Below, in pieces: positions 10,090 to 56,699 of a stretch of DNA of 64,000 nucleotides. Position 1 is the first letter of the stretch, and each line of letters starts with the position of its first letter. This DNA comes from Streptomyces sp. NBC_01264 (GTDB taxonomy: Bacteria > Actinomycetota > Actinomycetes > Streptomycetales > Streptomycetaceae): the NCBI RefSeq assembly GCF_026340675.1, contig NZ_JAPEOX010000002.1:1302001-1366000 (forward strand), read 5' to 3'. The position numbers and the translations under genes are program-made. The notes under the pieces were generated by a model. It worked only from the letters and a program-made list of their open reading frames with translations, did no database searches and had not been told where the DNA came from.

Positions 10090-10199
10090 AAAGCCCGCGG
10101 CCGAGGACGACGGCCTGCTCCGTAGTGGCGGCTGTGCCCAGCCGGTGCGCCACCACGAGCGCCGCGCACGTCGCCGGCTCCTCGTTCGAGCTCCGCCAT
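10088..10199 (-). pseudogene. Relic of an ABC-transporter ATPase C-terminus
   Basis: Read on the minus strand, about 35 codons up to a TGA at 10088-10090 translate to a segment with ALVVAHRLGTAATTEQAVVL. This matches the H-loop strand (VVAHRL-TA) and following VLDRG strand of ABC exporter nucleotide-binding domains. An in-frame stop lies just upstream, and no Walker A or signature motif exists nearby. It is the debris of a lost transporter at the left edge of the PKS cluster; the cluster now has an MFS exporter at 39387. Confidence 0.6.
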
Positions 10200-10240
10200 C
10201 AGCCCTCGGTCAGTGCAGCGTCAGGGTGCCCTGTTTGTAT
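10198..10240 (+). promoter_or_regulatory. SARP-type promoter of the ACP/PKS operon
   Basis: Heptamers ATCAGCC (10198), GTCAGTG (10209) and GTCAGGG (10220) start exactly 11 bases apart. The last ends eight bases before TTGTAT (10235-10240), a plausible -10 box. This is the geometry known for SARP-activated promoters, in which the direct repeats replace the -35 element. Transcription would start near 10247, about 60 bases before the ACP start. The same arrangement recurs at 21232, 23146 and 27190. Confidence 0.7.
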
Positions 10241-10305: not shown

Positions 10306-10617
10306 ATGCCGGAACCCTTGAGTGTCGACCTGCGGCTGCGGGAGCTGCCCCGGGCGGAATTGCACGATGCGCTGGAAGCCCTCGTCGTCACCCGGTTCAA
10401 GCGGGTGCTGCTGATGGACGACGACGAGGAGCTCGCTCTCGACAGCAGCTTCTTCGACCTGGGGCTGACCTCCCTGGGCCTCGCGGAGCTGCGCAAGGGC
10501 CTGGAAGGCCTCCTCGGTGTCGAGATCGACGCGACCGTGCTCTTCAACAAACCGACGATCGACGAGCTCGTGGGCCATCTCGGCGCGAAGCTCTCCGACC
10601 ACGTCAGGAAGGCGTGA
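10306..10617 (+). CDS. Free-standing acyl carrier protein
   Basis: A 103-aa carrier protein. The phosphopantetheine attachment Ser56 is in FFDLGLTSLGLAEL, a variant of the LGxDSL motif with Thr before the serine. Downstream is the typical GVEIDATVLFNKPTIDELVGHL helix III region. The ATG at 10306 follows GGTGGA; the longer open frame upstream is not needed. One base separates it from the PKS gene. It probably holds the starter acyl group or passes the chain between the acyl-AMP ligase, PKS and release enzymes. Confidence 0.85.
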   Translation: MPEPLSVDLRLRELPRAELHDALEALVVTRFKRVLLMDDDEELALDSSFFDLGLTSLGLAELRKGLEGLLGVEIDATVLFNKPTIDELVGHLGAKLSDHVRKA

Positions 10618-23113: not shown

Positions 23114-23145
23114 GCACGGGTGTGCGGAATGCGGGGAACGGCGGT

Positions 23146-23188
23146 GTCAGCCGCGCATCAGGCCCGGGTCAGGCACTACGGAGATGCT
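23146..23188 (+). promoter_or_regulatory. SARP-type promoter of the kinase/PrpD operon
   Basis: Heptamers GTCAGCC (23146), ATCAGGC (23157) and GTCAGGC (23168) begin 11 bases apart. After eight bases comes GATGCT (23183-23188) as -10. This is the same layout as at 21232 and 27190. The operon start codon is at 23269. Confidence 0.72.
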
Positions 23189-23268
23189 GGCCCGCGCGTG
23201 CGAATCCCGGCGCAGAGCCGTGCCCATCGTCATCCGACCGATGTCATCCGACCGATTGGAGTGAAGCC

Positions 23269-24243
23269 ATGGCGGACACCGCCGGGGCATATCCCGAGGA
23301 CTGTCTGGTCATCGCGAATCCGGCAGCCGGCACCGTCACCGAGGAACTGGTGCGGGAAGTGGCCGACCGGTGCGCACGCCACACCCGCGTCACCGTCACC
23401 CGCACCGAAGGACCCGGCGACGCCGAGCGGGCCGCCCGGGAGGCCGTCCGCACCCGGACCGGCGAGGGGACGCGGGTGGTCGTCGCCATCGGCGGCGACG
23501 GGACGGTGCTCGAGGTCGTGAACGGCCTGATGGACGGCGCCGGGCCCGGCGAGTACACCGCGCTGCTCGTGGTACCGGCCGGCACCGGCAACTCCGGCTA
23601 CCGCTCCCACTGGGGCACGCGCCCCTGGCAGGAAGCCGTCGACACCGGACTCGGCGCCCTTCCCTCGGCCCTGCGCCGGCTCGACCTGGCGCGGGTCAGG
23701 GAGCTCGACGCACTGGTGGTGCTCGGCGCCGGCGCCGGACTCACCGCCGAAGTGCTGCGCAGCGCCCGGGAGGTGACGCTGCGGGGCCGGGCCCGGCTCC
23801 AGGCGGGACTGGAACACGCCGCGTCCGTGTTCACCCCGTACCCCGGCCGGGTGGCCGTCGACGGGGCCGTCGTGCACAAGGGCGAGACGGTGCTGGTCAA
23901 CATAGGCGGCGGCCGGCACCGCGCCTGGCAGTACCTGGTGCTGCCGCATTCGGTGCTGGACGACGGGCTCCTGGACGTCTGTGTGGTCGGCGCCGGCACC
24001 GACCCCGTCGACGTGCCCCCGCTGCTGCTCACCGGGGAGCACGTCGACCGGACCGGCGTGGTCTACCGCACCGGCCGCAGCGTGGTCGTGGAGCGCACGG
24101 ACGGCCTGCCGCTGTGCTTCGAGCACGACGGCGAACTGGTGGCGTACGAAGGATCGCGGCTGACCGTCGACATCCTGCCCGGGGTGCTTCCGGTGCTGTG
24201 CGCACCCGTGCCCGGCCCCGCCCGGCCGGAGCGGACCCGATGA
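23269..24243 (+). CDS. Diacylglycerol-kinase-like small-molecule kinase (VlmJ-like)
   Basis: A 324-aa protein of the DAG-kinase/lipid-kinase family. It has an N-terminal ANPAAG strand, the GGDGTVLEVVNGL nucleotide motif (residues ~84-96), PAGTGNS, and a C-terminal beta-sandwich ending FEHDGELVAYEG. In valanimycin biosynthesis the homologous VlmJ phosphorylates the hydroxyl of valanimycin hydrate, preparing it for elimination. Here the gene overlaps a MmgE/PrpD gene by ATGA, reproducing the VlmJ/VlmK pair. I therefore infer O-phosphorylation of the serine-derived CH2OH of an azoxy intermediate rather than lipid phosphorylation. Confidence 0.85.
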   Translation: MADTAGAYPEDCLVIANPAAGTVTEELVREVADRCARHTRVTVTRTEGPGDAERAAREAVRTRTGEGTRVVVAIGGDGTVLEVVNGLMDGAGPGEYTALLVVPAGTGNSGYRSHWGTRPWQEAVDTGLGALPSALRRLDLARVRELDALVVLGAGAGLTAEVLRSAREVTLRGRARLQAGLEHAASVFTPYPGRVAVDGAVVHKGETVLVNIGGGRHRAWQYLVLPHSVLDDGLLDVCVVGAGTDPVDVPPLLLTGEHVDRTGVVYRTGRSVVVERTDGLPLCFEHDGELVAYEGSRLTVDILPGVLPVLCAPVPGPARPERTR

Positions 24244-25757
24244 CCGGGCGGCGCCCCGGGCCCGGCCCGGCCGGGGAAACCCCGCTCCCGCCGTCCCGGA
24301 CCGCCGAGCTGGCGGGCTGGGCCGCCGGACTGCGCCTGGAGGACCTCCCCACCCGGGTCGTCGGGCTCGCGCGCAGTCAGGTCCTGTCGCAGCTCGCCGC
24401 CATCCGCACCGGCCTCGGCCACCCGCTCGGGCGCCGGCTGGTGTCCGCCTTCGGGGAGCCGCTGCAGTCCGATCCGGCCCGGTCCGCGGCCGTCCTGGCG
24501 GGCCTCGGCTCCTGGCTCAACCTCGACGACACGGCGTACGCCGGGCACTTGTCGAACTCGACGGTCGCGACGCCCCTCGCCTACGTCCGCTCCGAGGGGC
24601 TCGACGGCGCCGCCTGCCTGACCGCCGTCGTGGCGGCCAACGAGTGCGCCGCCCGGGTCACCGCGGCGGCGACGCTCGGACCCTTTCGAGGCCAGACCGC
24701 CGCGCACACCAGTCTGATCGGCGGTGTGACCGGCAGACTGCACTGCACCGGAGCCGGAGCCGGCACCTGGACCCATGCGATCGGGCTGGCCATGACCATG
24801 CCGCCGTGGACCCTCCTGTACGGCTTCCTCAGCGGCGACGCCCGGGTCCTCACCGCCCTGACACCGGTGCGCGCGGCGATGGACGCGTGCGACGCGGCCG
24901 AGGCCGGACTGACCGCGGCCGCGGACGTGGTGGAGCACCCCGACGGCTTCCTGAGCAGGTTCGCGGTGGTGCCGCTCCCCCGGGCCGTGGACGAGGGGCT
25001 CGGCCGGCGCTGGCACACCGACACGCTCTCCTTCAAGGTCCGTCCCGGCGGACCGGGTGTGGACACCGCCGTGGACTGCGCCCTGGAACTGCGCCGGCGG
25101 TCACCGGGGGCCGGCTTCGCCGACGGGATCGAGGAGATCGTCGTGGAGACGTCGCGCTACACCACGTACGTCGCGCACCTGACCGACCGGCACGGAAACG
25201 GGCCGGACACCCCGCCGAGCATCCTGCCGCTCTCGGTGCCGTACGCCGTCGCCGTGGCGCTGCTCACCGGCGATCTGTCCGTGGCCGACTTCACGGCGCC
25301 CGCCACGCACGAGGCGCGGCGCTGGGAACTGTCCTCCCGGGTGCGGCTGGTGGAGGATCCCGGGATGACGGACGACCTGCTGGCGAGCGCCGCGCCGTTC
25401 GGAGCGGCGGTCCGGCAGGCGGGGCGGCCCGCCGTCGACTGGCTGGCCGCGTTCGCGGGGCGGGAGGCCGCCGAGCGGGCCGTACTGGGCGCCCCCGAGG
25501 ACACCTTCGAGCAGGCGACCAAGCACACCGGCTCCCGGCTCACCGTGCGCTGGGCGGACGGCCGCACGGCCACCGCGCGGCGCGACATCCCCATCGGGGC
25601 GGCGGGAGAGGAGACCCGGGCACTCCACTGGGAGCTGGTCAGGGAGAAGTTCCGCCGGGCCGGGGGTCCGGACGAGGCCGCCGACCTGTGCGCCCATCTG
25701 GAGGAGCTGTCCCCGGCGGAGCTCGCCAAGCTGACCGCGACGGCGCTCGGCGGCTGA
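24240..25757 (+). CDS. MmgE/PrpD-family dehydratase (VlmK-like)
   Basis: A 505-aa protein of the 2-methylcitrate dehydratase superfamily. It has an all-helical core starting ELAGWAAGLRLEDLPTRVV, the LNLDDTAYAGHLSNSTV segment where PrpD has its active-site acid and His, and a C-terminal alpha/beta lid. The ATG overlaps the kinase stop. In valanimycin, VlmK eliminates phosphate to create the acrylate double bond, and the linked kinase here makes the same two-step dehydration likely, giving a vinyl or dehydroalanine-like azoxy unit. Ordinary propionate metabolism is unlikely because no prpB or prpC is nearby. Confidence 0.85.
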   Translation: MTGRRPGPGPAGETPLPPSRTAELAGWAAGLRLEDLPTRVVGLARSQVLSQLAAIRTGLGHPLGRRLVSAFGEPLQSDPARSAAVLAGLGSWLNLDDTAYAGHLSNSTVATPLAYVRSEGLDGAACLTAVVAANECAARVTAAATLGPFRGQTAAHTSLIGGVTGRLHCTGAGAGTWTHAIGLAMTMPPWTLLYGFLSGDARVLTALTPVRAAMDACDAAEAGLTAAADVVEHPDGFLSRFAVVPLPRAVDEGLGRRWHTDTLSFKVRPGGPGVDTAVDCALELRRRSPGAGFADGIEEIVVETSRYTTYVAHLTDRHGNGPDTPPSILPLSVPYAVAVALLTGDLSVADFTAPATHEARRWELSSRVRLVEDPGMTDDLLASAAPFGAAVRQAGRPAVDWLAAFAGREAAERAVLGAPEDTFEQATKHTGSRLTVRWADGRTATARRDIPIGAAGEETRALHWELVREKFRRAGGPDEAADLCAHLEELSPAELAKLTATALGG

Positions 25758-26098: not shown

Positions 26099-27097
26099 TC
26101 AGAACGCCTTGCAGGCGCGGAAGACATGGGCGAAGGCGGCCGGTGAGGCCGGCCCGTCGAAGGCCACGTACTCGGGGATCAGCTCCTCCGGAGCCCATTT
26201 CTCCTTGTAGGACAGCTGGGTCCGGGCCGGGTACAGGGCCTCCCCGTTCTCCCACAGGAAGTGCATCAGCCACTGGAACGCCGGACTGTGCCCCGGTACC
26301 TCGTGCGCCGGGTCCAGTCCGGTGAACGGGGTGAAGCCGAAGTGCAGCCAATCGACCCCCTCGGCCCGGAAGACGTCGATCGCCCGGGAGTTGATCGCCT
26401 CCATCAGCCCGGGCGAACCGCCGGGGATGCGCCGGCTCAGGTCGTGCATCCAGCCCGACCGGCTTCCGTAGACCGGCGAGTAGGAGATGTAGCCCACGGC
26501 GGCGCCGTCGATCGTGCCGAGGAAGAGCCGGCGGTGCTCCTGTGCCGGGCCGCCCAGCTCGCCCACCAGGAACTCCAGCGGACGGGCGTGCTCTCCCTTG
26601 GAACCCAGCCACGCCCGGTCGATGTCGTGCAGTGCCTCCTCCCACCGGCCGGAGTCCACCTCCTCCACCTCCAGGCCGTTGCGGAACGCCCTGGAGATCT
26701 TGTTGCGCAGCTGCATGAAGCGGGTGCCGCGCAGGGTGAAGGCGGGCAGGTGGACGGCCCACGAGGCGCCGATCTGGTTGACCGTGAAGCCCTGGCGCCG
26801 GTACGCCTCGGCGTCCTGCCGCTGCAACTGCACGCCCACCAGGCCCAGATCCTGCTCCCGGGCGAAGGCGGTGAAGCGTTCGAGCAGGGCCTCGTACGCC
26901 TCCGGGGTGGCGAACGGGCCGCCGAACTGCACCAGATGGCGCCCGGTCCGCCGGTAGACGACGAGGCCGTCCAGGCCGGGTGCGGTGAACACCTCGTTGC
27001 CCCGGTTGAGGGCCAGAAAGGAACTGGGGTTGTCGGACCGGGTGTGCCGCCGGACGGCATTCAGTACCGGATTTTCGAGAGCGGGGGAAGTGGTCAC
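26099..27097 (-). CDS. DUF2156 aminoacyl-tRNA-dependent transferase (VlmA-like seryltransferase)
   Basis: A 332-aa double-GNAT protein of the DUF2156/LPG-synthase C-terminal type, the fold of MprF lysyltransferases that use aminoacyl-tRNA. Visible hallmarks are VVYRRTGRHLVQFGGPFATPE, the basic FMQLRNKISRAFRNG stretch, AVGYISYSPVYG, and the RIPGGSPGLMEAINSRAIDV helix before LHFGFTPFTG. The GTG at 27097 is preferred (AAGGAG six bases upstream) over a TTG further out. In valanimycin, VlmA moves serine from seryl-tRNA to an alkyl-hydroxylamine. With a cluster SerRS at 36814 and an anticodon-less tRNA-Ser-like gene 186 bases away, this is very likely the enzyme that forms the O-seryl hydroxylamine. 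Confidence 0.82.
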   Translation of the reverse strand: MTTSPALENPVLNAVRRHTRSDNPSSFLALNRGNEVFTAPGLDGLVVYRRTGRHLVQFGGPFATPEAYEALLERFTAFAREQDLGLVGVQLQRQDAEAYRRQGFTVNQIGASWAVHLPAFTLRGTRFMQLRNKISRAFRNGLEVEEVDSGRWEEALHDIDRAWLGSKGEHARPLEFLVGELGGPAQEHRRLFLGTIDGAAVGYISYSPVYGSRSGWMHDLSRRIPGGSPGLMEAINSRAIDVFRAEGVDWLHFGFTPFTGLDPAHEVPGHSPAFQWLMHFLWENGEALYPARTQLSYKEKWAPEELIPEYVAFDGPASPAAFAHVFRACKAF

Positions 27098-27189
27098 GGT
27101 CTGCTCCTTGTCAGTACGAAGCAACTTGCCGGAAGTACATCAGCTGCAATGGCCCGGCGAAAGGGCAACGGGAGAGCGGCCGCCCAGCG

Positions 27190-27243
27190 GTCAGATCCGT
27201 ATCAGCGCCGTATAAGCGGGATATCAGGCGGGCCTGGCAATGT
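27190..27243 (+). promoter_or_regulatory. SARP-type promoter driving the tRNA-like RNA and ALDH operon
   Basis: Four heptamers, GTCAGAT (27190), ATCAGCG (27201), ATAAGCG (27212) and ATCAGGC (27223), start at exact 11-base steps. Eight bases later is CAATGT (27238-27243) as -10, predicting a start near 27250 and a leader of about 33 bases before the tRNA-like fold. It is the longest repeat array of the four matching promoters, so the RNA is expected to be co-induced with the biosynthetic genes. Confidence 0.72.
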
Positions 27244-27282: not shown

Positions 27283-27369
27283 GGAGAGGTGCCCGGAGCG
27301 GTCTATCGGGGTCCGGCGTTCGCGCCGGTCTGGCTCAGGCCTCCGCAGGTTCAAATCCTGCCCTCTCCG
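27283..27369 (+). tRNA. tRNA-Ser-like RNA with no anticodon (UUCG-capped arm)
   Basis: A complete 87-base cloverleaf. Acceptor: GGAGAGG (27283-27289) pairs perfectly with CCTCTCC (27362-27368), with G73 at 27369 and CC but no A encoded. D arm: CCCG (27292-27295) with CGGG (27307-27310), loop containing the conserved GG. T arm: GCAGG-TTCAAAT-CCTGC (27345-27361). A 16-base variable region (27329-27344) can form GGC-TCAG-GCC, making it class II like tRNA-Ser. In place of a 5-bp stem and 7-base anticodon loop, CCGGCG (27313-27318) pairs with CGCCGG (27323-27328) around TTCG, so no anticodon exists. SerRS recognises G73, the acceptor stem and the long arm, not the anticodon, so charging with Ser is plausible while decoding is impossible. 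Its neighbours are the VlmA-like transferase and, in the downstream operon, a SerRS. Function is inferred; the fold is seen. Confidence 0.8.
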
Positions 27370-27371
27370 CC

Positions 27372-27400
27372 CTTCGTGAACGAATGCTTCGTGAACGAAT
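27372..27400 (+). repeat. Two 14-base direct repeats after the tRNA-like RNA
   Basis: CTTCGTGAACGAAT occurs at 27372-27385 and 27387-27400, each able to fold a small TTCG/CGAA hairpin. They lie between the 3' end of the tRNA-like fold and its terminator and may be trailer structures that guide 3' processing of the precursor RNA. Confidence 0.7.
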
Positions 27401-27403
27401 TGA

Positions 27404-27442
27404 GAACGGCCGGTCGCCCGGAAGGGCAGCCGGCCGTTCTTT
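27404..27442 (+). terminator. Intrinsic terminator of the tRNA-like transcript
   Basis: GAACGGCCGG (27404-27413) pairs perfectly with CCGGCCGTTC (27430-27439), with an inner GCCC-GGAA-GGGC hairpin, followed by TTT. It ends 142 bases before the ALDH start codon and should release a short RNA containing the tRNA-like fold, with read-through or another promoter feeding the operon. Confidence 0.85.
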
Positions 27443-27584
27443 CGTTGCGGGAAAGGCGGGAGAAAGGCGAGAGTCAGCCGCTCATCAGCGGTCGGTCAGG
27501 TGCGGCTGTAAGCATCGATGCGTTCCGTGCGGAGACTGCCGAGACTGCGGAGTCCGCGGAAACCGAATTCGGGGAGGCGTGAGG

Positions 27585-29183
27585 ATGCGCGACAAGCCAC
27601 TGCTCAGCTACGAGCTCTACATCGCCGGGAAGGACGTGGAGGGCGACGGCTGGGTGTACACGGTCAGCTCCCGGTCCCTGCTCGAGGACGTGTTCACCAG
27701 TGTCGGCCTGAAGCGGGACCTGGAGCGCGACCCGGCGTCCGAGGCCGCGCAGCACCCCTACGTCATCGGCCGCTGCGCCATCGCCTCTTCGGGCGCCATC
27801 GACCTGGCGACCGAGGCCGCGGCCGCCGCGGCGCCCGGCTGGGCCGCCGTGCCGCTGGAGCGGCGGATGCGGCTGGGCACCCGCTTCCGTGAGGAACTCC
27901 TGGCCCGGCAGGACGAGTTCGTCGACATGCTGGTGGCCGAGGGGCACCCCGTCAAACTCGCGCGGTGGGAGCTCAGCTGCCTGTTCCAGGTGTACAGCGA
28001 GGAGAGCCTGGGCTGGTACCGCGAACAGATGCACACCGAGTTCAGTCACGGCGACCGCCGGCTGATCGTGCGCCGCCGCCCGGACGGAGTCGTCGGTTTC
28101 CATCCGCCGCAGAACGCCCCGGCCCCGAGCGCCGCCCTGGCCGTACTGGCCCTGATGGCGGGCAACGCCGTCGTGGTCAGGGCGCCGCGCTCGATCGCGC
28201 TCAGCACGATGTGGCTGATGCGCGACGTGGTGGGGCCGCTGCTCGACGAACTCGGGGCGCCTCCGGGCGTGCTCAACGCCATCTGCGGCAATCCCAAGCA
28301 GACCCTGGACCGCTGGCTCGCCGATCCGCTGATCGACGACATCTTCTACATCGGCGGAAGCAAGGAGGGCCTGCTCTTCGAGCGGGACTGCGTCGCGGCC
28401 GGCAAGAAGCCCATTCTGGAGCTGGCGGGCAACGACACCATCGTGGTGTGGCGCGACGCCGACGTGGAGAAGGCGGCGCAGGCCCTCGCCGAGGCGTTCT
28501 ACGGCTCCGGCCAGATCTGCATGGTGCCCAACTGCGTCGTCGTCCATCCCGCGGTCGCGGACCGGCTGTTCGAGGAGGTACGGGCCCGGGTCGCCGAGGT
28601 CCGCCCCGGATACCCGCAGGACCCCGAGGTCCTGCTGTCCCCCGTACGCCGCAGCGAGCGGTTCTTCGGGCTGCTCAAGCAGGCCACGGACCGGGGCGCC
28701 GAGCTGGTGATCGGGGGCCTGCGCACGGAGTTGGACGGCACGCCGTCCCAGACCGGTGTCTTCCTCCAGCCGACCGTGGTGCGGGTGAACGGGCTGGCCG
28801 GGGCGCGCGCGTACGACGTGGTGGACCAGGAGACGTTCTTCCCGCTGCTGCCGATCGTGGTCGCCGAACCCGCCGACGACGACGAACTCCTCGACCGCTT
28901 CGTCGACTTCGTCAACAGCAACCGGTACGGCCTGCGCAACTCGCTGTGGGCCGGGTCGGACCGGGTGATCGACACGTTCGTCGGCCGGATCTCCAACGGC
29001 GGGCTGCTGAAGGTCAACGACTCGCACATCGGGTTCCTGCCCTACCTGCCGAGCCACGGCGGTACCGGTCTCACCGGCGGAGCCTTCGGGGAGGCGAACT
29101 ACCCGATGCTCAAGACCTCGCACCTCCAGGGCGTCAGCATCGCCCGCGGCATCAGTCCGCACGAAGCGGTCTTCGGCTCATGA
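27585..29183 (+). CDS. Aldehyde dehydrogenase superfamily protein, possible acyl-thioester reductase
   Basis: A 532-aa ALDH-fold protein. The catalytic Cys is in GSGQICMVPN and the general-base Glu in LELAGNDT; the NAD-binding part (VVVRAPRSIALSTMW, IFYIGGSKEG) precedes them. The ATG at 27585 follows GGGGAGG. In this cluster the PKS lacks a reductase domain, and an aminotransferase and N-hydroxylase follow, so reduction of the acyl thioester to the aldehyde (reverse of ALDH oxidation) is the attractive role. Oxidation of an aldehyde to acid cannot be excluded. It heads a run of closely packed genes to 38097. Confidence 0.82.
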   Translation: MRDKPLLSYELYIAGKDVEGDGWVYTVSSRSLLEDVFTSVGLKRDLERDPASEAAQHPYVIGRCAIASSGAIDLATEAAAAAAPGWAAVPLERRMRLGTRFREELLARQDEFVDMLVAEGHPVKLARWELSCLFQVYSEESLGWYREQMHTEFSHGDRRLIVRRRPDGVVGFHPPQNAPAPSAALAVLALMAGNAVVVRAPRSIALSTMWLMRDVVGPLLDELGAPPGVLNAICGNPKQTLDRWLADPLIDDIFYIGGSKEGLLFERDCVAAGKKPILELAGNDTIVVWRDADVEKAAQALAEAFYGSGQICMVPNCVVVHPAVADRLFEEVRARVAEVRPGYPQDPEVLLSPVRRSERFFGLLKQATDRGAELVIGGLRTELDGTPSQTGVFLQPTVVRVNGLAGARAYDVVDQETFFPLLPIVVAEPADDDELLDRFVDFVNSNRYGLRNSLWAGSDRVIDTFVGRISNGGLLKVNDSHIGFLPYLPSHGGTGLTGGAFGEANYPMLKTSHLQGVSIARGISPHEAVFGS

Positions 29184-29215: not shown

Positions 29216-30355
29216 ATGCGTTCCCTCTCCACCGCACGAGAGCTCTGCGACCACTACCACCCCGGCCTGCTCAAGGCCCTGGGGGACATCCCGTACGCCC
29301 GGCGCGAGGTCCCCGGCAGCCCGGTGATCGACCTGTTCCGCGCCCACGACGGGGCCGGACTGCTGGTCCCGCGGGAGTACGGGGGCCACGGCGCGGACGC
29401 GCTCGACGCCATCCGGGTCCAGCGCGCCCTCGGCTCGCTCTCGCCCTCCGTGGCGGCCGCGGCGGCCATGCACCACTTCACCACCGCGACGCTGTACGCC
29501 CTCGCCGTCGATCCCGGCCGGCTCACCCCCGCCCAGCTGGAGGTGCTCTCCGGCATCGCGCCCGGGCGCCGGCTGATGGCGTCCGGCTGGGCCGAGGGAC
29601 GGACCCAGCAGAACATCCTCGTTCCGGCGGTGTCGGCGACCCCCACCGAGGGCGGCTACCTCCTCAACGGCACGAAGAAGCCGTGCAGCCTGTCCCGTTC
29701 CATGGACCTGCTGACCGCCAGCATCGCGGTGCCCGGTCCGGACGGCGCGCCCGAACTGGCCCTGGCGATGGTGAACCTGCCCGCGCGGGGGCTGTCCGTG
29801 CACCCGTTCTGGGGCAACGACGTCCTCGCCGGCGCCGAGAGCGACGAGGTCCGGCTGACCGACGTCTTCGTCCCTGAGGAACTGGTCGTCCGGACCACCG
29901 CCGAGGACCCCGGCAGGCTCGACGACCTGCAGACGGTCGCCTTCGTCTGGTTCGAGCTGCTGATCTCGGCCGCCTACGTCGGCGCGGCGAGCACGCTGGC
30001 CGAGCAGGTGGTGAGCCGGGAGCGGGGCACCGCCGGGGAACGCGCCGCCCTCGTCATCCGGGTCGACTCGGCCTTCGGCCTGCTGGAGGGCGCCGCCCGG
30101 GCGGTCCTCGCCGGGCTCGGCGGCGAGGAGGCCGTCGCCCAGGTACTGGTGGCCCGGTACACCGTGCAGGACCTCCTCGCCCAGGCCGTGGACCAGGCGG
30201 TGGAACTGCTCGGGGGCCTCGACTTCATCCGCTCCGGCGACCACGCCCGGCTGGCCACCGCCGTGCGCGCGCTCGCCTTCCACCCGCCCGGCCGCGGCGC
30301 GGCCGCCGAACCCCTGCTGGCCTGGTTCGCGGGCCACCCCCTGGAGCTGTCATGA
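29216..30355 (+). CDS. Acyl-CoA-dehydrogenase-fold amine N-hydroxylase (VlmH-like)
   Basis: A 379-aa flavin protein of the acyl-CoA dehydrogenase superfamily (LLVPREYGGHGADALDAIRV, ASGWAEGR, final helix AVELLGGLDFIRSGDHARLA). The ATG at 29216 has AAGGA upstream; an in-frame ATG at 29180 that overlaps the ALDH stop is an alternative start. Isobutylamine N-hydroxylase (VlmH) of valanimycin belongs to this superfamily and uses reduced flavin from a separate reductase. Such a reductase is encoded at 32706. Placed next to an amine-forming aminotransferase, it most likely makes the alkyl-hydroxylamine. The ACAD catalytic Glu is not evident, in line with a monooxygenase. Confidence 0.78.
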   Translation: MRSLSTARELCDHYHPGLLKALGDIPYARREVPGSPVIDLFRAHDGAGLLVPREYGGHGADALDAIRVQRALGSLSPSVAAAAAMHHFTTATLYALAVDPGRLTPAQLEVLSGIAPGRRLMASGWAEGRTQQNILVPAVSATPTEGGYLLNGTKKPCSLSRSMDLLTASIAVPGPDGAPELALAMVNLPARGLSVHPFWGNDVLAGAESDEVRLTDVFVPEELVVRTTAEDPGRLDDLQTVAFVWFELLISAAYVGAASTLAEQVVSRERGTAGERAALVIRVDSAFGLLEGAARAVLAGLGGEEAVAQVLVARYTVQDLLAQAVDQAVELLGGLDFIRSGDHARLATAVRALAFHPPGRGAAAEPLLAWFAGHPLELS

Positions 30356-32187: not shown

Positions 32188-32709
32188 ATGGACCAGGCCA
32201 ACCCCTTCGAAACCCCCAGGACCTTCAGCCTCCACCGCGCCGAGTATCTGGTCGGGCTGGCCGTGTCCACCGGGCTGATCATCGCTCACTTCGGGGAGAT
32301 CCGGTGGCTGCCGGCCATCGCGCTGTTCCTCTACATCGACCTCATCGGCTACCTGCCCGGCGCCATCGCGTTCCGGCGCAGCGGCGGCCGGCCCATCTCC
32401 AAGACGTACTACGTGCTCTACAACGTGATGCACAGCCTGATCACCCAGGGCGCGGTCGCCGCGCTGTGGTGCTGGCTGGTGAAGCCCGAATGGGCCCTGC
32501 TCGTGCTGCCGTTCCACCTCTTCGGCGACCGGGGGCTGTTCGGCAACTTCATGAAGTCGTTCGCGCTGCCCTTCGAACCGGTCCCGCAGAAGGGCTACCT
32601 GCGGCTGCTGGACGATCTCGGGCTCGCCCACCCCAAGCCCGTCGGGCACACCACCGAGCCCGCCCCCGTCGGCCACGTGGCCGCGCGGTCGGCCGGAGCG
32701 GCCCGATGA
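32188..32709 (+). CDS. Small integral membrane protein of the azoxy operon
   Basis: A 173-aa protein with about four hydrophobic segments (LVGLAVSTGLIIAHF, WLPAIALFLYIDLIGYLPGAIAF, the LYNVMHSLITQGAVAALWCWL region and ALLVLPFHLFGDRGLFGNF) and several His/Asp residues near the membrane faces. The ATG at 32188 follows GGAGACGACCC. Membrane proteins of unknown function recur in azoxy clusters, as I recall for VlmO of valanimycin, but I cannot confirm homology by eye. It overlaps the flavin reductase gene by 4 bases. Involvement in N-N bond formation is speculative. Confidence 0.65.
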   Translation: MDQANPFETPRTFSLHRAEYLVGLAVSTGLIIAHFGEIRWLPAIALFLYIDLIGYLPGAIAFRRSGGRPISKTYYVLYNVMHSLITQGAVAALWCWLVKPEWALLVLPFHLFGDRGLFGNFMKSFALPFEPVPQKGYLRLLDDLGLAHPKPVGHTTEPAPVGHVAARSAGAAR

Positions 32710-33254
32710 GGTCCGCGGCGAAGGCGCCCGCCCGGCTGCTGATCGACCAGCTGGCCGCGCCGGTGGCGGTGCTCACCGTGCGCCACCAGGGGCGTACGCA
32801 CGGCACGACGGTCAGCACCCTGACCCGGGTCTCGCACCGCCCGCTGCTCCTCGGGGCGGCGCTGCGGGCCGGGTCGGTGCTGTCCCGGCTGGCCTCCGCC
32901 GAAGGCCGGTTCGCCGTCAACGTGCTCGGGGCGTCCCAGAGTTCCGTCGCCCGCTGGTTCGCCTCCAGCGCCCGCCCGGACGGGGTCGAGCAGTTCGCCG
33001 CCGTCGACTGGCACCCCGACCCGTACACCGCGGCGCCCCTGCTCGACGGCGCGCTCGCGCACTACGCCTGCCGGCTCTCCGCCCGTCACGTCGTCGGCGA
33101 CCACGAGGTGCTGCTCGGACACGTCGTCCGGGTCGACAGCGGCGCCGGTGACCCGCTGCTGAGCTACGGGGGCGGACTCTTCGCCGGCGCGCTGCACCCG
33201 CGGACCCCACCGGGCGGCGGACACCGACCCCACATCGAGGAGGAAGCGGGATGA
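32706..33254 (+). CDS. Flavin reductase, FMN-binding split-barrel (VlmR-like)
   Basis: A 182-aa NAD(P)H:flavin oxidoreductase. Features are APVAVLTVRHQGRTHGTTVSTLTRVS, FAVNVLGASQ and the GDHEVLLGHV motif with the conserved Gly-Asp-His. The ATG overlaps the membrane protein stop (ATGA). It should supply reduced flavin to the acyl-CoA-dehydrogenase-type N-hydroxylase at 29216, as VlmR does for VlmH. Confidence 0.85.
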   Translation: MRSAAKAPARLLIDQLAAPVAVLTVRHQGRTHGTTVSTLTRVSHRPLLLGAALRAGSVLSRLASAEGRFAVNVLGASQSSVARWFASSARPDGVEQFAAVDWHPDPYTAAPLLDGALAHYACRLSARHVVGDHEVLLGHVVRVDSGAGDPLLSYGGGLFAGALHPRTPPGGGHRPHIEEEAG

Positions 33255-34276
33255 CCGACACCACACGCGACCGGACGGCCGGCGCGGGCGCGGACCGGGT
33301 CACGGCCCCCGAGGCCGACTGGGACACCGCGCCGGGCCTGCTCGACGGCGCCATGAAGCTCACGCTCGGGCCCGAGGACTGCGACCTGGCTTACTGGATC
33401 ACCTCGGTCGCCCAGGGCACGCTGCGCGACCGGGGGGTGACCGGACACCACGAGGACGCCGGTGTGCCGGAGCTGCTGACCCGGCCGGGTCCGCTGAACG
33501 AGGCGCTGACCCTGGAGTTCGGCTTCCGCAGCGTCGCCGAGGAGATCGCCACCCGGCTGCTCGGGCACTACGTGGCCCGCGCGCCCGGCATCCCCGAGAT
33601 GGAGTTCTACGCCACCCAGATGATCGACGAGGCCCGGCACTCCCGGGTGTTCCGCAATCACCTGGTGGAGCTCGGCAGGCCGGCCGCGACCCTGCTGCGG
33701 GACATCGACGAGATGGCGGCCGACTACCGGCGCCGGGTACTGCGGCCGGTCGAGGAGTTCACGCTCGAAGTCATCCGGGACGAGGGGGACTTCCTCGGCG
33801 GTGTCGCGGTGTTCGCCATCGTCATCGAAGGGGTCCTGGCCCCCGCGGCCGAACTCAGCGAGCGCAAGTGGACCCCCCTCTCCCCCGCCACCGGGGAGAT
33901 CTCCCGCGGGACGGCCATCGACGAGATCCGCCATCTGACCGTCGCGAGCACCATCCTGCGCGACCGACTGCGGGAGCACCCCGAGGAGCGGCAGCGGGTG
34001 CTGGACGTCATCGGGCGGGGCGTCCGGCTGTGGGACGAGATCCCCGACCGCGAATTCGTCATCCACCGCGAGGAACTGTTCCAGGAGGGCATGGAGGAGC
34101 ACGCCGACCTCATCGGGGACCACGAGATCTGGCCCGGCGTACGGATGCTCGACACCACAGCCGAGCAGCGCTACGCCATGGCGGAGCGCTGGACCGACGA
34201 GATGGCCGAGACGCGCATGGCCTACATGGAACTGCCCGTCGACGTGCTGACCGGCGGTCCGGGGCGGTCGGCATGA
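33251..34276 (+). CDS. VlmB-like ferritin-type diiron protein
   Basis: A 341-aa helical protein with two E-x-x-H ligand motifs typical of carboxylate-bridged diiron sites: Glu127/His130 in IDEARH and Glu225/His228 in IDEIRH. Additional acids are at Glu97/98 (VAEE) and Glu193 (VIEG). This matches the VlmB-like family of azoxy clusters, thought to act in oxidation of an N-N intermediate to the azoxy group. ATGA overlaps on both sides place it firmly in the operon. The diiron assignment is from motifs; the exact reaction is inferred. Confidence 0.78.
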   Translation: MTDTTRDRTAGAGADRVTAPEADWDTAPGLLDGAMKLTLGPEDCDLAYWITSVAQGTLRDRGVTGHHEDAGVPELLTRPGPLNEALTLEFGFRSVAEEIATRLLGHYVARAPGIPEMEFYATQMIDEARHSRVFRNHLVELGRPAATLLRDIDEMAADYRRRVLRPVEEFTLEVIRDEGDFLGGVAVFAIVIEGVLAPAAELSERKWTPLSPATGEISRGTAIDEIRHLTVASTILRDRLREHPEERQRVLDVIGRGVRLWDEIPDREFVIHREELFQEGMEEHADLIGDHEIWPGVRMLDTTAEQRYAMAERWTDEMAETRMAYMELPVDVLTGGPGRSA

Positions 34277-36813: not shown

Positions 36814-38097
36814 GTGCACGACGTACGAGAACTGATCGAGCGGGACGGGCCGACGACGGCGGCGCTCACCCGCCGCGGCTACGAGTTGCGGGTCGCGCCG
36901 CTCCGGGAGGCGCAGCAGCGCCGTACCCGGGCCGCCGACCGGGTGACCCGGCTGCGGGCCGAGCTGAACCGGGCCTCCCGGTCCGCCCGCTCCTCCGGCG
37001 GACCGTCCGATGCCGCGCGCGACGCGGCCAGGGAACTGCGCGGCGCGGTCCGGCAGGCCGAGGAGGCGCTCTCGGCGGCCGGACGCGAACTGCGCGACCT
37101 GCTGCTCACCGTCCCCAACGTGCCGTACGACGACGTGCCGGACGGAGCCACCGGGGACGACGCGGTGGAGGTGCGCCGGGGCGGGCCGCCGCCCGTGCCG
37201 GCCGATCCGCAGCGCCATCACGCCGGGATCGGCGAGGCCCTGGGGATCCTGGACGCCGCCGCGGCCGGCCGGCTGTCGGGGGCCCGGTTCAGCGTCGCCC
37301 GCGGCGCCGGAGCCCGGCTGGAACGGGCGCTGGCCGACTTCTTCCTGGACCTGCACACGCGGAGCCAGGGATACACGGAGTACTCGGTGCCCTATCTGGT
37401 CAGCCGGGAGACCATGACGGGCACGGGGCAACTGCCGAAGTTCGAGGACGATCTCTTCGCCACCTCGGTCGGGGGCCGGGAGCTGATGCTCATTCCGACC
37501 GGCGAGGTGCCGCTGACCAACCTCTTCGCCCGGCAGACGCTCGACGCGGCGGGACTGCCGCTCGCCGTCACGGCCCGCACCCCCTGCTTCCGCGCCGAGG
37601 CGGGCTCGTACGGCCGTGACACCCGGGGGATCCTGCGGCTGCACCAGTTCGAGAAGGTGGAGCTGGTCAGGATCTGCCGCCCGGAGGACTCCCGTGCCGA
37701 GCTGGAGGTCCTGCTCGGGCACGCCGAGGAATGCCTGCGGAGGCTGGAGCTCTCCTACCGGGTCGTGCTGCTGCCCGCCGGCGACCTCGGGTTCTCCGCG
37801 CGCATGACCTACGACATGGAGGTGTGGCTGCCGGGCTCGGACGCCTACCGGGAGATCTCCTCGGTCTCCGACTGCGGCACCTTCCAGGCGCGCCGGGCCG
37901 GGATCCGCGTGCGCACGCGCGACGGCGTCAAGACGCCCGCCGCCACCCTCAACGGCTCGGCCCTGCCGATCGGCCGTACGGTCGCGGCGCTGCTGGAGCA
38001 GGGGTTGCGCGAGGACGGTTCGGTGGAGCTCCCGGCCGCGCTCGTGCCGTACGCCGGGTTCCGCCGCGTGCTGCCCGACGGCGGTACGGCACCGTGA
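36814..38097 (+). CDS. Cluster seryl-tRNA synthetase (VlmL-like)
   Basis: A 427-aa class II synthetase. Residues ~25-105 form the antiparallel coiled-coil arm that grips the long variable arm of tRNA-Ser. The catalytic part has motif 2 (CFRAEAGSYGRDTRGI) and motif 3 (NGSALPIGRTVAALLEQ). The GTG start follows AGGGGAC. Placement at the end of the azoxy operon makes it a dedicated copy, like VlmL of valanimycin. It would supply Ser-tRNA to the DUF2156 transferase, possibly on the anticodon-less RNA at 27283. The coiled-coil arm is Arg-rich and could be tuned to that RNA. Confidence 0.92.
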   Translation: MHDVRELIERDGPTTAALTRRGYELRVAPLREAQQRRTRAADRVTRLRAELNRASRSARSSGGPSDAARDAARELRGAVRQAEEALSAAGRELRDLLLTVPNVPYDDVPDGATGDDAVEVRRGGPPPVPADPQRHHAGIGEALGILDAAAAGRLSGARFSVARGAGARLERALADFFLDLHTRSQGYTEYSVPYLVSRETMTGTGQLPKFEDDLFATSVGGRELMLIPTGEVPLTNLFARQTLDAAGLPLAVTARTPCFRAEAGSYGRDTRGILRLHQFEKVELVRICRPEDSRAELEVLLGHAEECLRRLELSYRVVLLPAGDLGFSARMTYDMEVWLPGSDAYREISSVSDCGTFQARRAGIRVRTRDGVKTPAATLNGSALPIGRTVAALLEQGLREDGSVELPAALVPYAGFRRVLPDGGTAP

Positions 38098-38140: not shown

Positions 38141-38917
38141 TCAGGAGACCGGGAAGGGCTGACGCAGCGACGGGTCCTGGTTGAGGATGTTCCTGAAGCG
38201 CTGCCGGAGCTGGACCGACGGCTCCATGCCCAGTTCCTCCACCAGCCGGCTGCGCGCCTTGTTGTACGCCTCGACCGCCTCCGCCTGCCGTCCGCAGCGG
38301 TAGAGGGCCAGCATCAGCATCTCGGTGATCCGCTCCCGCCACGGGTGGACGGTACTCATCCGCTTGAGTTCCCCTATGACGTGGAACGGGTCCTCGCATC
38401 CGATTCCGAGCCAGAGCTTGTCCTCCAGCGCCGTCATGTATTCCTCGTCGAGCTGGAGGGCCACGCTCTGGCACATCGGCCCGGCGGGCACGTCCTGGAG
38501 GGGCGAGCCGCGCCACAGCCCCAGCGCCTCTTCCAGTAATCCGTAGGCCCGCCGGGGATCGTCGGCGACGACCCGACGGGATTCCGCGATCCGTCCGCGG
38601 AAGACGTTCATGTCGAGGTGATCGGCCGCGACCTCCAGGGTGTACCCGGAGGCCCTTGTGGCCAGGTGGGCGGGTGGGGCGGTCGATCCCGCCATCTTCT
38701 GGAGCGTCCCGCGCAGCCGGTAGATGTGGGCCTGCAGAGAGTTGTTCGCCGTCGGCGGCGGACTTTCCCCCCACAGCTCCGTGTAGAGCTGCTCGGCGGG
38801 CACCGGCCGGCCACCGCTCACCAACAGGGCCGCGAGAAGCGTCCGCTGTCTTGCCCCTGGAATGCTGTGGAATTGACCGTCCAGCTGATAACCGACCGCG
38901 CCGAGTATTCGGAACAT
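38141..38917 (-). CDS. SARP-family regulator with BTAD domain (TTA codon)
   Basis: A 258-aa activator: winged helix at residues ~1-95 (FRILGAVGYQLDG, QRTLLAALLVSGGRPV, NNSLQAHIYRLRGTLQ) and BTAD at ~100-250 ending YNKARSRLVEELGMEPS. The ATG at 38917 is used; a GTG one codon earlier is possible. Codon 127 is TTA (38537-38539), as in the other SARP, so translation should depend on bldA. It sits convergent to the azoxy operon and divergent from the MFS gene, and is the second candidate reader of the (A/G)TCAG heptamers. Confidence 0.88.
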   Translation of the reverse strand: MFRILGAVGYQLDGQFHSIPGARQRTLLAALLVSGGRPVPAEQLYTELWGESPPPTANNSLQAHIYRLRGTLQKMAGSTAPPAHLATRASGYTLEVAADHLDMNVFRGRIAESRRVVADDPRRAYGLLEEALGLWRGSPLQDVPAGPMCQSVALQLDEEYMTALEDKLWLGIGCEDPFHVIGELKRMSTVHPWRERITEMLMLALYRCGRQAEAVEAYNKARSRLVEELGMEPSVQLRQRFRNILNQDPSLRQPFPVS

Positions 38918-39386
38918 CACCGGTTCGATTCTCCTTACGCGTGCTCTGCGTTGGCATATCCTCGGCGGGCCAGCAACCCGTGGGGAGGGTGGCCCGTGTC
39001 ACAGATGGTTGCGCCATACAGTTGGGGGATTCGCACTCGATTTCAAGATTGCCATGGAACGTCCGCGCCGAGGCGGGGCATTTACAACCGGCCGATGCTT
39101 CTCCGCCAATGGAATGATCAAATCCGCAGCATTTTCGACCGATTCGTCACCATCTCCACGCCTGATCGACCGTACGCATGTACGCCCTTCGGCCTGCGCT
39201 TCGACGGAGTACCCCTACAGCGAGAGGCCAGTGGCAATACCGCGACGGGAACACACCCAAAGGCGGTGCCGCGTTTTGGCCTGATCTCTTCATTACCTCC
39301 GACGTAATTGACGGAACTGCAGGAGAGGCAGAAGCTGTTTGCCCGGTTGTAAATTCCGGATGAGCAAGCCGAACTGGAGTCCTGGG
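38918..39386. other. 470-base divergent intergenic region
   Basis: This gap between the SARP gene and the MFS exporter is less GC-rich than its surroundings. It contains the TetR-type operator at 39292 and room for two promoters, but no convincing ORF and no heptamer array of the kind found at 21232. Several AT-richer stretches (for example around 39105-39145) may hold start sites for the leftward SARP transcript. Confidence 0.6.
39292..39308. promoter_or_regulatory. TetR-type operator, copy 3, upstream of the MFS gene
   Basis: ATTACCTCCGACGTAAT matches the operators at 20447 and 23097 in both half-sites, the seven-base centre and the central CT. It lies 79 bases before the exporter start codon, consistent with repression of export by the TetR protein encoded at 20499. 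Confidence 0.7.
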
Positions 39387-54773: not shown

Positions 54774-56000
54774 TTGCTGCTGATCGGTGACGACTGGGCC
54801 GAAGACCATCACGATGTCGAGGTCCAGGACGGGACGGGCCGCAAGCTGGCCGTCGCGACCCTGCCCGAGGGGGTGGAGGGCATCGCGAAACTGCACGCGC
54901 TCATCGCGAAGTACGGTGGCGCGGATGTGGACTCCGCCGAGGTGGTGGTGGGGATCGAGACCGATCGCGGCCCGTGGGTGCAGGCCCTGATCGCCTCCGG
55001 CTACCAGGTGTTCGCGATCAACCCGAGGCAGGTCAACCGGTTCAAGGAACGCTACGGAACCTCCGGCGCCAAGAGCGATAAAGGCGATGCGCACGCGCTG
55101 GCAGACATGGTCCGTATCGACCGTGACCAGTTGCGGCCCGTCGCTGGAGACAGCGAGCAGGCCCAGGCCGTGAAGGTCGTCGCCCGTGCCCACCAGACAC
55201 TGATCTGGGAACGCACCCGCACCTTCCAGCGGCTGCGCAATACGCTGCGCGAGTACTTCCCCGCGGCCCTGGACGCCTACGCCGACTTGGCGCTGACCAG
55301 CACGGACGCACTGGAGCTGCTGATCAAGGCGCCCACGCCCGCCACCGCGGCGAAGCTGACGCGCCCCCAGATCACCGCGGTCCTGACCCGCCACCGCCGG
55401 CACAACCGGCCCCAGAAAGCCGCCACGATCCAGACCGCGCTGCGAGAAGAACACCTCGGTCTGCCCGAACCGGTGACCGCCGCCTACGCGGCCGCCGCGA
55501 CAGCCCACGCGCGCCTGCTGATCAGTCTGAACGAGCAGATAGCCGAGCTCGAAAGGCAGGTGAAGGCACATTTTCTTGAGCACCCGGACGCTGAGATCTA
55601 CCTCTCGATGCCCGGCATCGCGGAGATCACCGGCGCCCGGGTGCTCGCCGAGTTCGGGGACGACCCCACCCGCTACGACAACGCGAAGGCCCGCAAGAAC
55701 TACGCCGGGACCAGCCCTATCACCCGGGCCTCCGGCAAGAGCCACACCGTCCAGGCCCGCTACGTCCGCAACAACCGCCTCGCCTCGGCCCTGCAACTCC
55801 AGGCGTTCTCCGCGCTGAACACCTCACCCGGCGCCCGCCGCTACTACGACAAGCAGCGCGCCCGCGACGCCGGCTACAACCCTGCCCTCCGCCAGGTCGG
55901 AAACCGCCTCGTCGGCATCCTCCACGGATGCCTCAAAACCCGCACCCACTACGACGAAGCAACCGCCTGGTCACACCACGCCCAGCTCTATCCCTCTTGA
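54774..56000 (+). CDS. IS110-family DEDD transposase/recombinase
   Basis: A 408-aa recombinase. N-terminal RuvC-like DEDD domain (IGDDWAEDHHDVEV, VVGIETDRGPWVQAL, KSDKGDAHALADM) and C-terminal Transposase_20 domain with the catalytic Ser region (YAGTSPITRASGKS, RNNRLASALQLQAFSAL). The TTG at 54774 is preferred (GGGAGAG upstream); the frame is open further upstream through the bridge-RNA region but with no homology. It should still be active as no lesion is visible. Confidence 0.9.
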   Translation: MLLIGDDWAEDHHDVEVQDGTGRKLAVATLPEGVEGIAKLHALIAKYGGADVDSAEVVVGIETDRGPWVQALIASGYQVFAINPRQVNRFKERYGTSGAKSDKGDAHALADMVRIDRDQLRPVAGDSEQAQAVKVVARAHQTLIWERTRTFQRLRNTLREYFPAALDAYADLALTSTDALELLIKAPTPATAAKLTRPQITAVLTRHRRHNRPQKAATIQTALREEHLGLPEPVTAAYAAAATAHARLLISLNEQIAELERQVKAHFLEHPDAEIYLSMPGIAEITGARVLAEFGDDPTRYDNAKARKNYAGTSPITRASGKSHTVQARYVRNNRLASALQLQAFSALNTSPGARRYYDKQRARDAGYNPALRQVGNRLVGILHGCLKTRTHYDEATAWSHHAQLYPS

Positions 56001-56531
56001 CATGAAACGGCATGGGATGTCTGACCTGGTCGTACGTCAGCGCGTCGAGGCGGACGTAGGGGGCGAGGCAGGTGTCGAACGAGGAGAAGGCCTGGGCGCC
56101 CGCCCATTCGTTCTGCAGGGTGCCGAGGAAATTCACGATCTGCCCGACGGCCGAGGACAGGTGCCGGGGAGGTACGGAGTCGATCTGTCCGGGGACTCCG
56201 TTGAAGCCCTCGGTCAGCAGGGTGCGCAGGGACCAGCCGGCGCAGTAGCCGGAGAGCATGTCCAGGTCGTGGATGTGGAAGTCGCCCTCGCGGTGGGCGC
56301 GGGCCACGGCGTCGGGGTAGACCTGTTCCAGCCAGTAGTTGGCGGTGATCTTGCCGGCGGCGTTGAGGATGAGGCCGCCGAGCGAATAGCCCTGGTTGGC
56401 GTTGGCGTTCACCCGCCAGTCCCGGCGGTCCAGGTATTCGGTCACGGTCTCTACGGCGTCGACGACAGCAGTCACGGCGGCCCTCCCACGAGGCTCGGCA
56501 CGGAAGATTGGCGGGCCGTCCGAAGGCCCGT

Positions 56532-56643
56532 GCCGGCAGGTGTCGGACTCGTCCGCCTGGGCGGATTCACCGTTGCGGGGCAGTCCCGGATTCCCACCGG
56601 GTTCCCTGTTGCCTCGGTCGGGGAGAGGCCCCGCCGAACCGGC
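56532..56643 (-). promoter_or_regulatory. Cobalamin riboswitch in the nrdD leader
   Basis: On the minus strand the classic B12 aptamer is present: P1 GCCGG/CCGGC (56639-56643 with 56532-56536), a GAGGCAACAGGGAA start, GGTGGGAATCCGGGACTGC, CCCGCAACGGTGA, and the 3' B12 box GTCCGACACCTGCC. An expression platform follows (GGGCC/GGCCC hairpin and an outer GGCACGG/CCGTGCC pair, about 56490-56531). It lies 57 bases before the nrdD start. It should turn off a B12-independent reductase when cobalamin is plentiful, as known for nrdABS in Streptomyces. Confidence 0.88.
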
Positions 56644-56650
56644 AGAGTCA

Positions 56651-56699
56651 ACACTACATATAGATGTGAGCCCGGGTAGCCACCACTACATATGGGGTG
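56651..56699. promoter_or_regulatory. Paired NrdR boxes
   Basis: Two copies of the NrdR palindrome centred on CACTACATAT (56652-56661 and 56684-56693) are spaced 32 bases, about three helical turns, as usual for NrdR operators. They sit directly upstream of the riboswitch, so initiation of nrdD would be repressed by NrdR and elongation or translation by B12. Confidence 0.8.

Follow-up and report, generated by a model that had tools for sequence, protein, structure and literature searches.

A tRNA(Ser)-like RNA family lacking the anticodon loop accompanies VlmA-type azoxy clusters and is probably a dedicated serine carrier

The window, that is the whole stretch of 64,000 nucleotides of Streptomyces sp. 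NBC_01264 analysed here, holds relatives of VlmA, VlmB, VlmH, VlmO, VlmR, VlmJ, VlmK and a seryl-tRNA synthetase (SerRS) (Table 1), which bears out the azoxy-type setting proposed in the initial annotation and makes the locus resemble the valanimycin VlmA/VlmL pathway. The VlmA-type gene is divergent from the RNA gene described below, and the sequence relatives of its product in the PDB are MprF and aminoacyl-phosphatidylglycerol synthases, placing it in the MprF/LPG-synthase family. The window contains two BTAD-type (SARP-like) regulators. The cluster SerRS is 38% identical to the housekeeping SerRS. Of the 37 long cluster-type SerRS found, nine were aligned, and these resemble one another much more closely in the core than in the N-terminal tRNA-binding arm; the window enzyme and that of locus L004 match at 239/316 positions in the core and at 53/108 in the arm. 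The window VlmH, VlmR, VlmB and VlmO proteins are 45-66% identical to those of L007 (NZ_CP108116.1, 9018-27265), a plasmid-borne cluster that looks like a valanimycin cluster, with genes for a pyridoxal-dependent decarboxylase, acetolactate synthase, ketol-acid reductoisomerase, SerRS and VlmA/B/H/J/K/O/R relatives; the RNA gene is present there twice in tandem, at 26400 and 26529. Two further structured RNAs matched elsewhere in the window, both on the minus strand: a cobalamin riboswitch at 56518-56658 (66.7 bits) and Ms_AS-4, an Actinobacteria sRNA family, at 55607-55688 (57.7 bits).

Table 1. Features of the cluster region; positions are counted from the first nucleotide of the window.
Feature	Positions	Strand	Basis or remark
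SARP-type triple TCAG repeat upstream of large ORF at 10517	10199-10224	+	
SARP-type triple TCAG repeat before P450 gene	21233-21258	+	
VlmJ-type kinase (PF00781/PF19279)	23122-24243	+	domains, homology; true start probably downstream of 23172
SARP-type triple TCAG repeat, probably before vlmJ-type gene	23147-23172	+	
VlmK-type MmgE/PrpD dehydratase	24309-25751	+	extent of tblastn match
VlmA-type aminoacyl transferase (PF09924, DUF2156)	26099-27124	-	PF09924 E 4.5e-66; start probably GTG 27097
Predicted SARP-type operator: TCAG at 27191, 27202 and 27224, degenerate TAAG at 27213, 11-bp phase	27191-27227	+	
Predicted -10 element CAATGT	27238-27243	+	distance from last repeat equals family consensus
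Anticodon-less class II tRNA(Ser)-like RNA, 87 nt, G73	27283-27369	+	sequence, ARAGORN, folding, RF00005, R1 82.0 bits
Anticodon-position hairpin CCGGCG-UUCG-CGCCGG, 6 bp plus tetraloop, replacing the 7-nt anticodon loop	27313-27328	+	sequence, fold
Aldehyde dehydrogenase, first gene of the biosynthetic operon	27384-29183	+	true start probably downstream of operator 27474-27499
Strong inverted repeat GAACGGCCGG..CCGGCCGTTC followed by TTTC, probable transcript end	27404-27439	+	sequence, fold
SARP-type triple TCAG repeat before aldehyde dehydrogenase operon	27474-27499	+	
VlmH-type flavin-dependent N-hydroxylase	29216-30355	+	homology; relatives annotated acyl-CoA dehydrogenase family
VlmO-type protein	32188-32709	+	relatives in clusters; named by position and after PMC9379638
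VlmR-type flavin reductase	32706-33254	+	homology
VlmB-type ferritin-like protein	33251-34276	+	homology; relatives annotated VlmB-like
Cluster SerRS, VlmL-type	36814-38097	+	TIGR00414 385 bits, cut-off 302
SARP-type regulator (BTAD + Trans_reg_C), candidate activator of RNA and cluster	38141-38920	-	domains

The sequence between the vlmA-type and aldehyde dehydrogenase genes confirmed what had been described there, a class II cloverleaf with perfect arms, a long variable region and G73, with a 6-bp hairpin closed by UUCG in the position of the anticodon arm. The 7-bp acceptor stem (GGAGAGG/CCUCUCC) is followed by U8 and a D stem of CCCG/CGGG, the T arm reads GCAGG-UUCAAAU-CCUGC, and the encoded 3' end has no CCA. 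The acceptor, D, T and long variable arms are those of a canonical tRNA-Ser cloverleaf and the serine identity elements G73, G1-C72 and G2-C71 are all in place, but a serine anticodon in a 7-nt loop was not found. ARAGORN accordingly reported a tRNA-??? with a two-letter 'anticodon'. Covariance models, proposed earlier as a check, gave a divided outcome: the Rfam tRNA model RF00005 scored 28.6 bits (E 3e-4 in a 251-base query), so that the standard Rfam threshold, a gathering score of 29, just misses the gene, whereas the family model R1 described below recognised it with 82.0 bits. At its gathering score RF00005 gave no match to the RNA copies in L003, L004 and L007 either. Simple scans for terminators and sigma-70 promoters flagged nothing around the RNA gene, the inverted repeat of Table 1 included. 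The genome has four canonical tRNA-Ser genes (GCU, UGA, GGA and CGA), all with G51-C63. A candidate second copy in the same genome, a 37-base match of 86%, turned out to be no tRNA-like gene. The single-sequence fold was moderately unusual (z -2.86; 2 of 200 shuffles were equally stable); folding of one sequence is weak evidence against chance by itself, and the strong part of that evidence is comparative.

VlmA loci were gathered by tblastn in plasmids and by a scan of genome contigs, and the window together with 89 of them (9 of the 41 plasmid records and the best 80 of the 147 genome-contig loci) made up 90 sources. A strict motif, which fixes the acceptor and T-arm letters, found 103 RNA copies, 89 of them distinct, in 70 of the 90 sources, with one to four copies per source and several in tandem. 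The covariance model R1 was built from 47 of the motif-found copies and is hence not fully independent of the motif; it added one source, L059, which is cut off at a contig end, so that for 71 of 90 sources the fetched stretch holds the RNA near a gene for the VlmA-type (DUF2156) transferase. Over the 89 fetched loci R1 gave 105 matches, the lowest at 76.8 bits (family range 77-104), and the class II tRNA-Ser and tRNA-Tyr genes of the window's own genome scored only 40-46.5 bits. ARAGORN, which has no knowledge of the motif, predicted tRNA-like genes, some few of them ordinary tRNAs, for 54 of the 90 sources.

Across the family the acceptor, D and T arms are nearly fixed, an invariance that for the acceptor and T-arm letters is partly by construction because the motif sets them. 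G73, G1-C72 and G2-C71 occurred in 47/47 representatives, where these letters are also set by the motif, and in the 21 model-found copies that were read. Most change lies in the anticodon stem and the variable arm, so that the stem looks selected for pairing while the loop letters are free. The 47 representatives contained 30 double-change cells against 8.4 +/- 2.5 in shuffles, none of 500 shuffles reaching 30, and 97.6% of cells paired (94.7% in shuffles). Changes on both sides were seen in seven pairs, with four of the five anticodon-stem pairs and two of the three variable-arm pairs involved, and the signal was lost when the partner strand was slid. The comparison across related clusters, which the initial annotation had proposed as a check, thus showed a conserved fold with compensatory changes. 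Decay of a tRNA gene that stayed beside the cluster by chance would fit the absent normal anticodon and the score below the Rfam threshold; the covariation already contradicts it, and conserved operator, leader and helices, together with multi-copy maintenance across genera, make such a pseudogene very improbable.

Loop lengths were read from minimum-energy folds. The predicted loop was 3-5 nt long in 98 of 106 distinct copies, most commonly GCAA (12) or UUCG (9), and 7 nt long in 3 of 106, one of them with a serine triplet. Control folds of the four canonical tRNA-Ser gave the 7-nt loop in three and misread SerGGA with a 3-nt loop, so the lengths carry some error. Compared with canonical class II tRNA-Ser, the RNA family shares the cloverleaf, long variable arm, G1-C72, G2-C71, G73, G18G19 and T loop; it differs in being mostly without a 7-nt anticodon loop and in having A51-U63 instead of G51-C63. 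We also considered an odd serine tRNA or suppressor that would read a rare or reassigned codon in the cluster genes. ARAGORN can indeed place triplets in many copies, but those it names stand for 16 different amino acids (selenocysteine counted) and 30 predictions name none; with the rarity of the 7-nt loop and the four canonical tRNA-Ser genes of the window's own genome, a role in translation is extremely improbable.

The RNA gene is preceded by repeats of the type bound by SARP regulators. TCAG repeats in 11-bp phase stood before 67 of the 72 first copies for which 100 nt or more of upstream sequence was available, against an average of 0.075 in letter shuffles, and control periods of 9, 10 and 12 gave 0, 2 and 0 of 72. 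Five sites in the window carry such repeats, each lying, as judged by position, ahead of cluster genes or the RNA, with 9 matches against 1.26 expected (none of 100 shuffles reached 9); a looser pattern with two mismatches showed no enrichment there (57 against 82 expected). Locus L007, which is valanimycin-type and 33 kb long, has the phased repeats only before vlmJ, vlmH and the RNA, and in L003, L004 and L005 they stand before other genes too. VlmI sites, consisting of three heptamer repeats, are reported upstream of vlmJ and vlmA-vlmH (PMC10972967). Sharing its operator with the biosynthetic promoters, the RNA gene appears to be part of the pathway regulon. Four loci of a deep VlmA branch (L183, L184, L217 and L221) have CTCAG in place of GTCAG in the repeats ahead of the RNA, which looks like a joint change of the SARP and its sites.

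The RNA is associated with VlmA-type genes, in line with the initial annotation, which had paired it with the DUF2156 transferase. Among 392 genomes of the genus, R1 found the RNA in 49 of the 80 genomes that have VlmA (E<=1e-30) and in 2 of the 312 that do not. Both exceptions carry a 37-38% identical VlmA relative near the RNA; counting these distant relatives gives 51/82 against 0/310, but they were found only via their RNA, having been sought in these two genomes alone, so that 49/80 and 2/312 are the fair figures. The 51 RNA-positive genomes are 54 matches minus 3 canonical tRNAs; weak R1 matches in G047, G105 and G184 (55-59 bits) were canonical tRNA-Ser(UGA) and had been dropped before counting.

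A tree of 130 VlmA proteins was labelled for RNA presence, with neighbourhoods from 8 of the 51 RNA-positive and all 31 RNA-negative genus genomes (32 loci), the remaining positive rows coming from plasmid records and the genome-contig scan. On one side of the tree 29 of 30 rows were RNA-negative and one was unlabelled; on the other side 93 of the 99 labelled rows were positive and six negative, with one more unlabelled. RNA presence changed 5 times on the tree, against about 31 times when shuffled. In the negative clade VlmJ, VlmK, SerRS and SARP relatives were present in 0 of 29 loci (tblastn E<=1e-10, fetched stretch), and among the 93 positive rows they were present in 34, 31, 41 and 60, respectively. 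Two clusters of the negative clade were inspected and look azodyrecin-like, with an Ady1-type (PF04072) leucine-carboxyl-methyltransferase-type enzyme, a fatty-acyl-type reductase and an aminotransferase. Azodyrecin (Ady) clusters share VlmA, VlmH and VlmO relatives with the window; the azodyrecin-looking ones differ in belonging to the clade in which none of the 29 labelled loci has the RNA, SerRS, VlmJ, VlmK or SARP. For azodyrecin, alanyl-tRNA from the cellular pool is proposed as the donor, as a proposal only (PMC9379638). The confinement of the RNA to the other clade thus indicates that a serine-type tRNA body goes with serine-type clusters.

Within the positive clade six VlmA rows from five genomes, some of them drafts, had no RNA found in the genome (L041; L062; L078, identical to L214; L190; and L193). 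L190 and L193 have VlmJ, VlmK and SARP relatives, so a serine-type pathway can apparently run without the RNA, and these clusters may use ordinary tRNA-Ser. A SerRS gene, in some cases only a partial one, was present in the fetched stretch in 36 of the 71 sources with linked RNA and in none of the other 35. The pairing of the RNA with a cluster SerRS that had been proposed for the window is therefore not a requirement, and in many strains the housekeeping SerRS probably charges the RNA.

Copies of the RNA are also dispersed. Of 17 actinobacterial genomes without a linked copy, 14 carry the RNA elsewhere in the genome. Seven genus genomes that were fully scored had 12, 8, 10, 10, 13, 8 and 6 copies, and the maximum was 15 in one genome (G401), a number that includes equal-score pairs near both chromosome ends, probably terminal-repeat duplicates. 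Many of the unlinked copies inspected sit in unrelated intergenic places, and a neighbour family common to all was not found among those fetched. One unlinked-copy site is syntenic between genomes, and a related gene neighbourhood holds a dispersed copy in L138, L143, L145 and L149, so that a number of the unlinked copies may be of early origin and have been passed on at the same site. The operator repeats precede 17 of 18 fetched dispersed copies, the upstream regions match those of linked copies, and the repeated unit is operator, leader and RNA only. This unit, the lack of a common neighbour family, the covarying helices and, in the genus sample, the restriction of the RNA to genomes with a VlmA relative all speak against a mobile or integration-site remnant, in which a tRNA-derived element would spread with its promoter and have no role in the pathway; the copy number and the scattered sites would suit such an element, which we nevertheless hold to be quite improbable.

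Members of the family occur in Kitasatospora, Actinacidiphila, Micromonospora, Salinispora, Microbispora, Actinokineospora, Parafrankia and others, as seen in VlmA-anchored loci or their genomes. A phylum sample of 396 genomes showed no member outside the genus: 213 genomes passed R1 at E<=1e-6, only two (G000 and G734) scored above 70 bits, and the next 10 matches by E-value (58.7-64.5 bits) were canonical tRNA-Ser on checking. Two plasmid records (L010 and L011), covered as plasmids alone, yielded no RNA.

These sequence-level statements on the RNA family are firm, and they support the reading of the initial annotation that the RNA is a dedicated carrier, for which expression, charging and transfer are what we infer. 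The RNA is likely such a serine carrier, predicted to be charged by SerRS, to hand its serine to the VlmA-type transferase and to be of no use to the ribosome. The pathway SARP would switch the RNA on together with the biosynthetic genes, the ends of the transcript would be matured, and CCA would be added, as it is not encoded. SerRS, in its cluster copy where present and otherwise the housekeeping enzyme, would then charge the RNA through the long variable arm, G73 and G1-C72/G2-C71; the anticodon would not be needed under the known rules of serine identity, which is anticodon-independent and involves G73, G1-C72 and G2-C71 (PMC9976931). By analogy with valanimycin, where VlmA makes O-seryl-isobutylhydroxylamine using seryl-tRNA (PMC12945691) and VlmL is a SerRS paralog serving the seryl-tRNA step (PMC2922099), VlmA would move serine from the RNA to the hydroxylamine made by VlmH/VlmR, towards the azoxy bond. 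The missing anticodon would bar decoding, the T-stem pair A51-U63 could make for weaker EF-Tu binding, and dispersed copies would raise the RNA supply in trans.

Instead of donating an amino acid, the RNA could serve as a regulatory decoy that binds SerRS or VlmA or signals the serine supply. Its copies have promoter-like regions of their own and can be dispersed, and a Bacillus cereus pseudo-tRNA acting inside a regulatory RNA is known (PMC3399842). A decoy would not have to be tied to serine-type VlmA, but the distribution of the RNA does follow that clade, and the parts used in charging (acceptor, G73, T and variable arms) are conserved while the anticodon loop drifts, so that we consider a decoy rather improbable. 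The B. cereus tRNA-Other is likewise a tRNA-like RNA outside translation; it differs in that it is thought to sit within larger regulatory RNAs (PMC3399842), whereas our family follows a biosynthetic clade and keeps its serine-charging parts.

That a tRNA is set aside for non-ribosomal transfer is already known, and the non-proteinogenic tRNA-Gly of Staphylococcus aureus, which serve cell-wall bridges and keep an anticodon, resemble the carrier RNA in this respect. The weak EF-Tu pair A51-U63 is common to both (PMC4052509) and was present in 47/47 representatives (column pair 92-105; U63 is fixed by the search motif, A51 is free). The S. aureus tRNAs differ in being glycine isoacceptors with A49-U65 and with G18G19 replaced (PMC4052509). 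In our family G49-C65 and G18G19 were each kept in 47/47 representatives, the anticodon loop is lost and the gene is apparently in the pathway regulon; since G18G19 and the G-C pair at 49-65 are retained, unlike in S. aureus, the EF-Tu argument is partial. We think it likely that the tRNA has here turned into a cofactor of the pathway: a family of seryl-carrier RNAs that cannot decode, are switched on by the SARP, reach up to 15 copies per genome and act in trans as the RNA counterpart of a 'carrier protein', with antibiotic synthesis insulated from the ribosome by the missing anticodon and a weakened EF-Tu stem.

What would be new is a tRNA without an anticodon loop that belongs to a biosynthetic regulon. 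The literature searched, which left out most subscription papers, held no report of a tRNA gene in azoxy or other biosynthetic clusters, and no dedicated RNA is described there for the valanimycin pathway, in which this locus differs from it. A 2014 review (PMC4052509) described it as unknown by what means valanimycin biosynthesis draws Ser-tRNA away from translation, and the RNA would be a concrete answer: the pathway would make its own serine carrier, whose inability to decode would explain how antibiotic making is kept separate from protein making. It would be an example of a tRNA released from the genetic code, whose natural variants could reveal the parts that SerRS and VlmA need. In practical terms, the RNA may serve as a marker for serine-type azoxy clusters, and heterologous expression of the protein genes alone may omit something that is required, especially with unlinked RNA copies.

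The family also adds to the content of biosynthetic clusters an RNA gene that tRNA finders leave unassigned or give shifting anticodons. The gene table used here omits RNA genes, and RefSeq locus-tag numbers skip at the RNA copies in L003, L005, L006, L007, L008 and L009, with two skipped in L007, which suggests that the annotation pipeline may list them as tRNAs. At the left end of L006, L008 and L009, beside linear-plasmid azoxy clusters, a class I tRNA-ligase-like protein adjoins an NRPS, with serS further along, possibly marking another aminoacyl-tRNA-dependent step.
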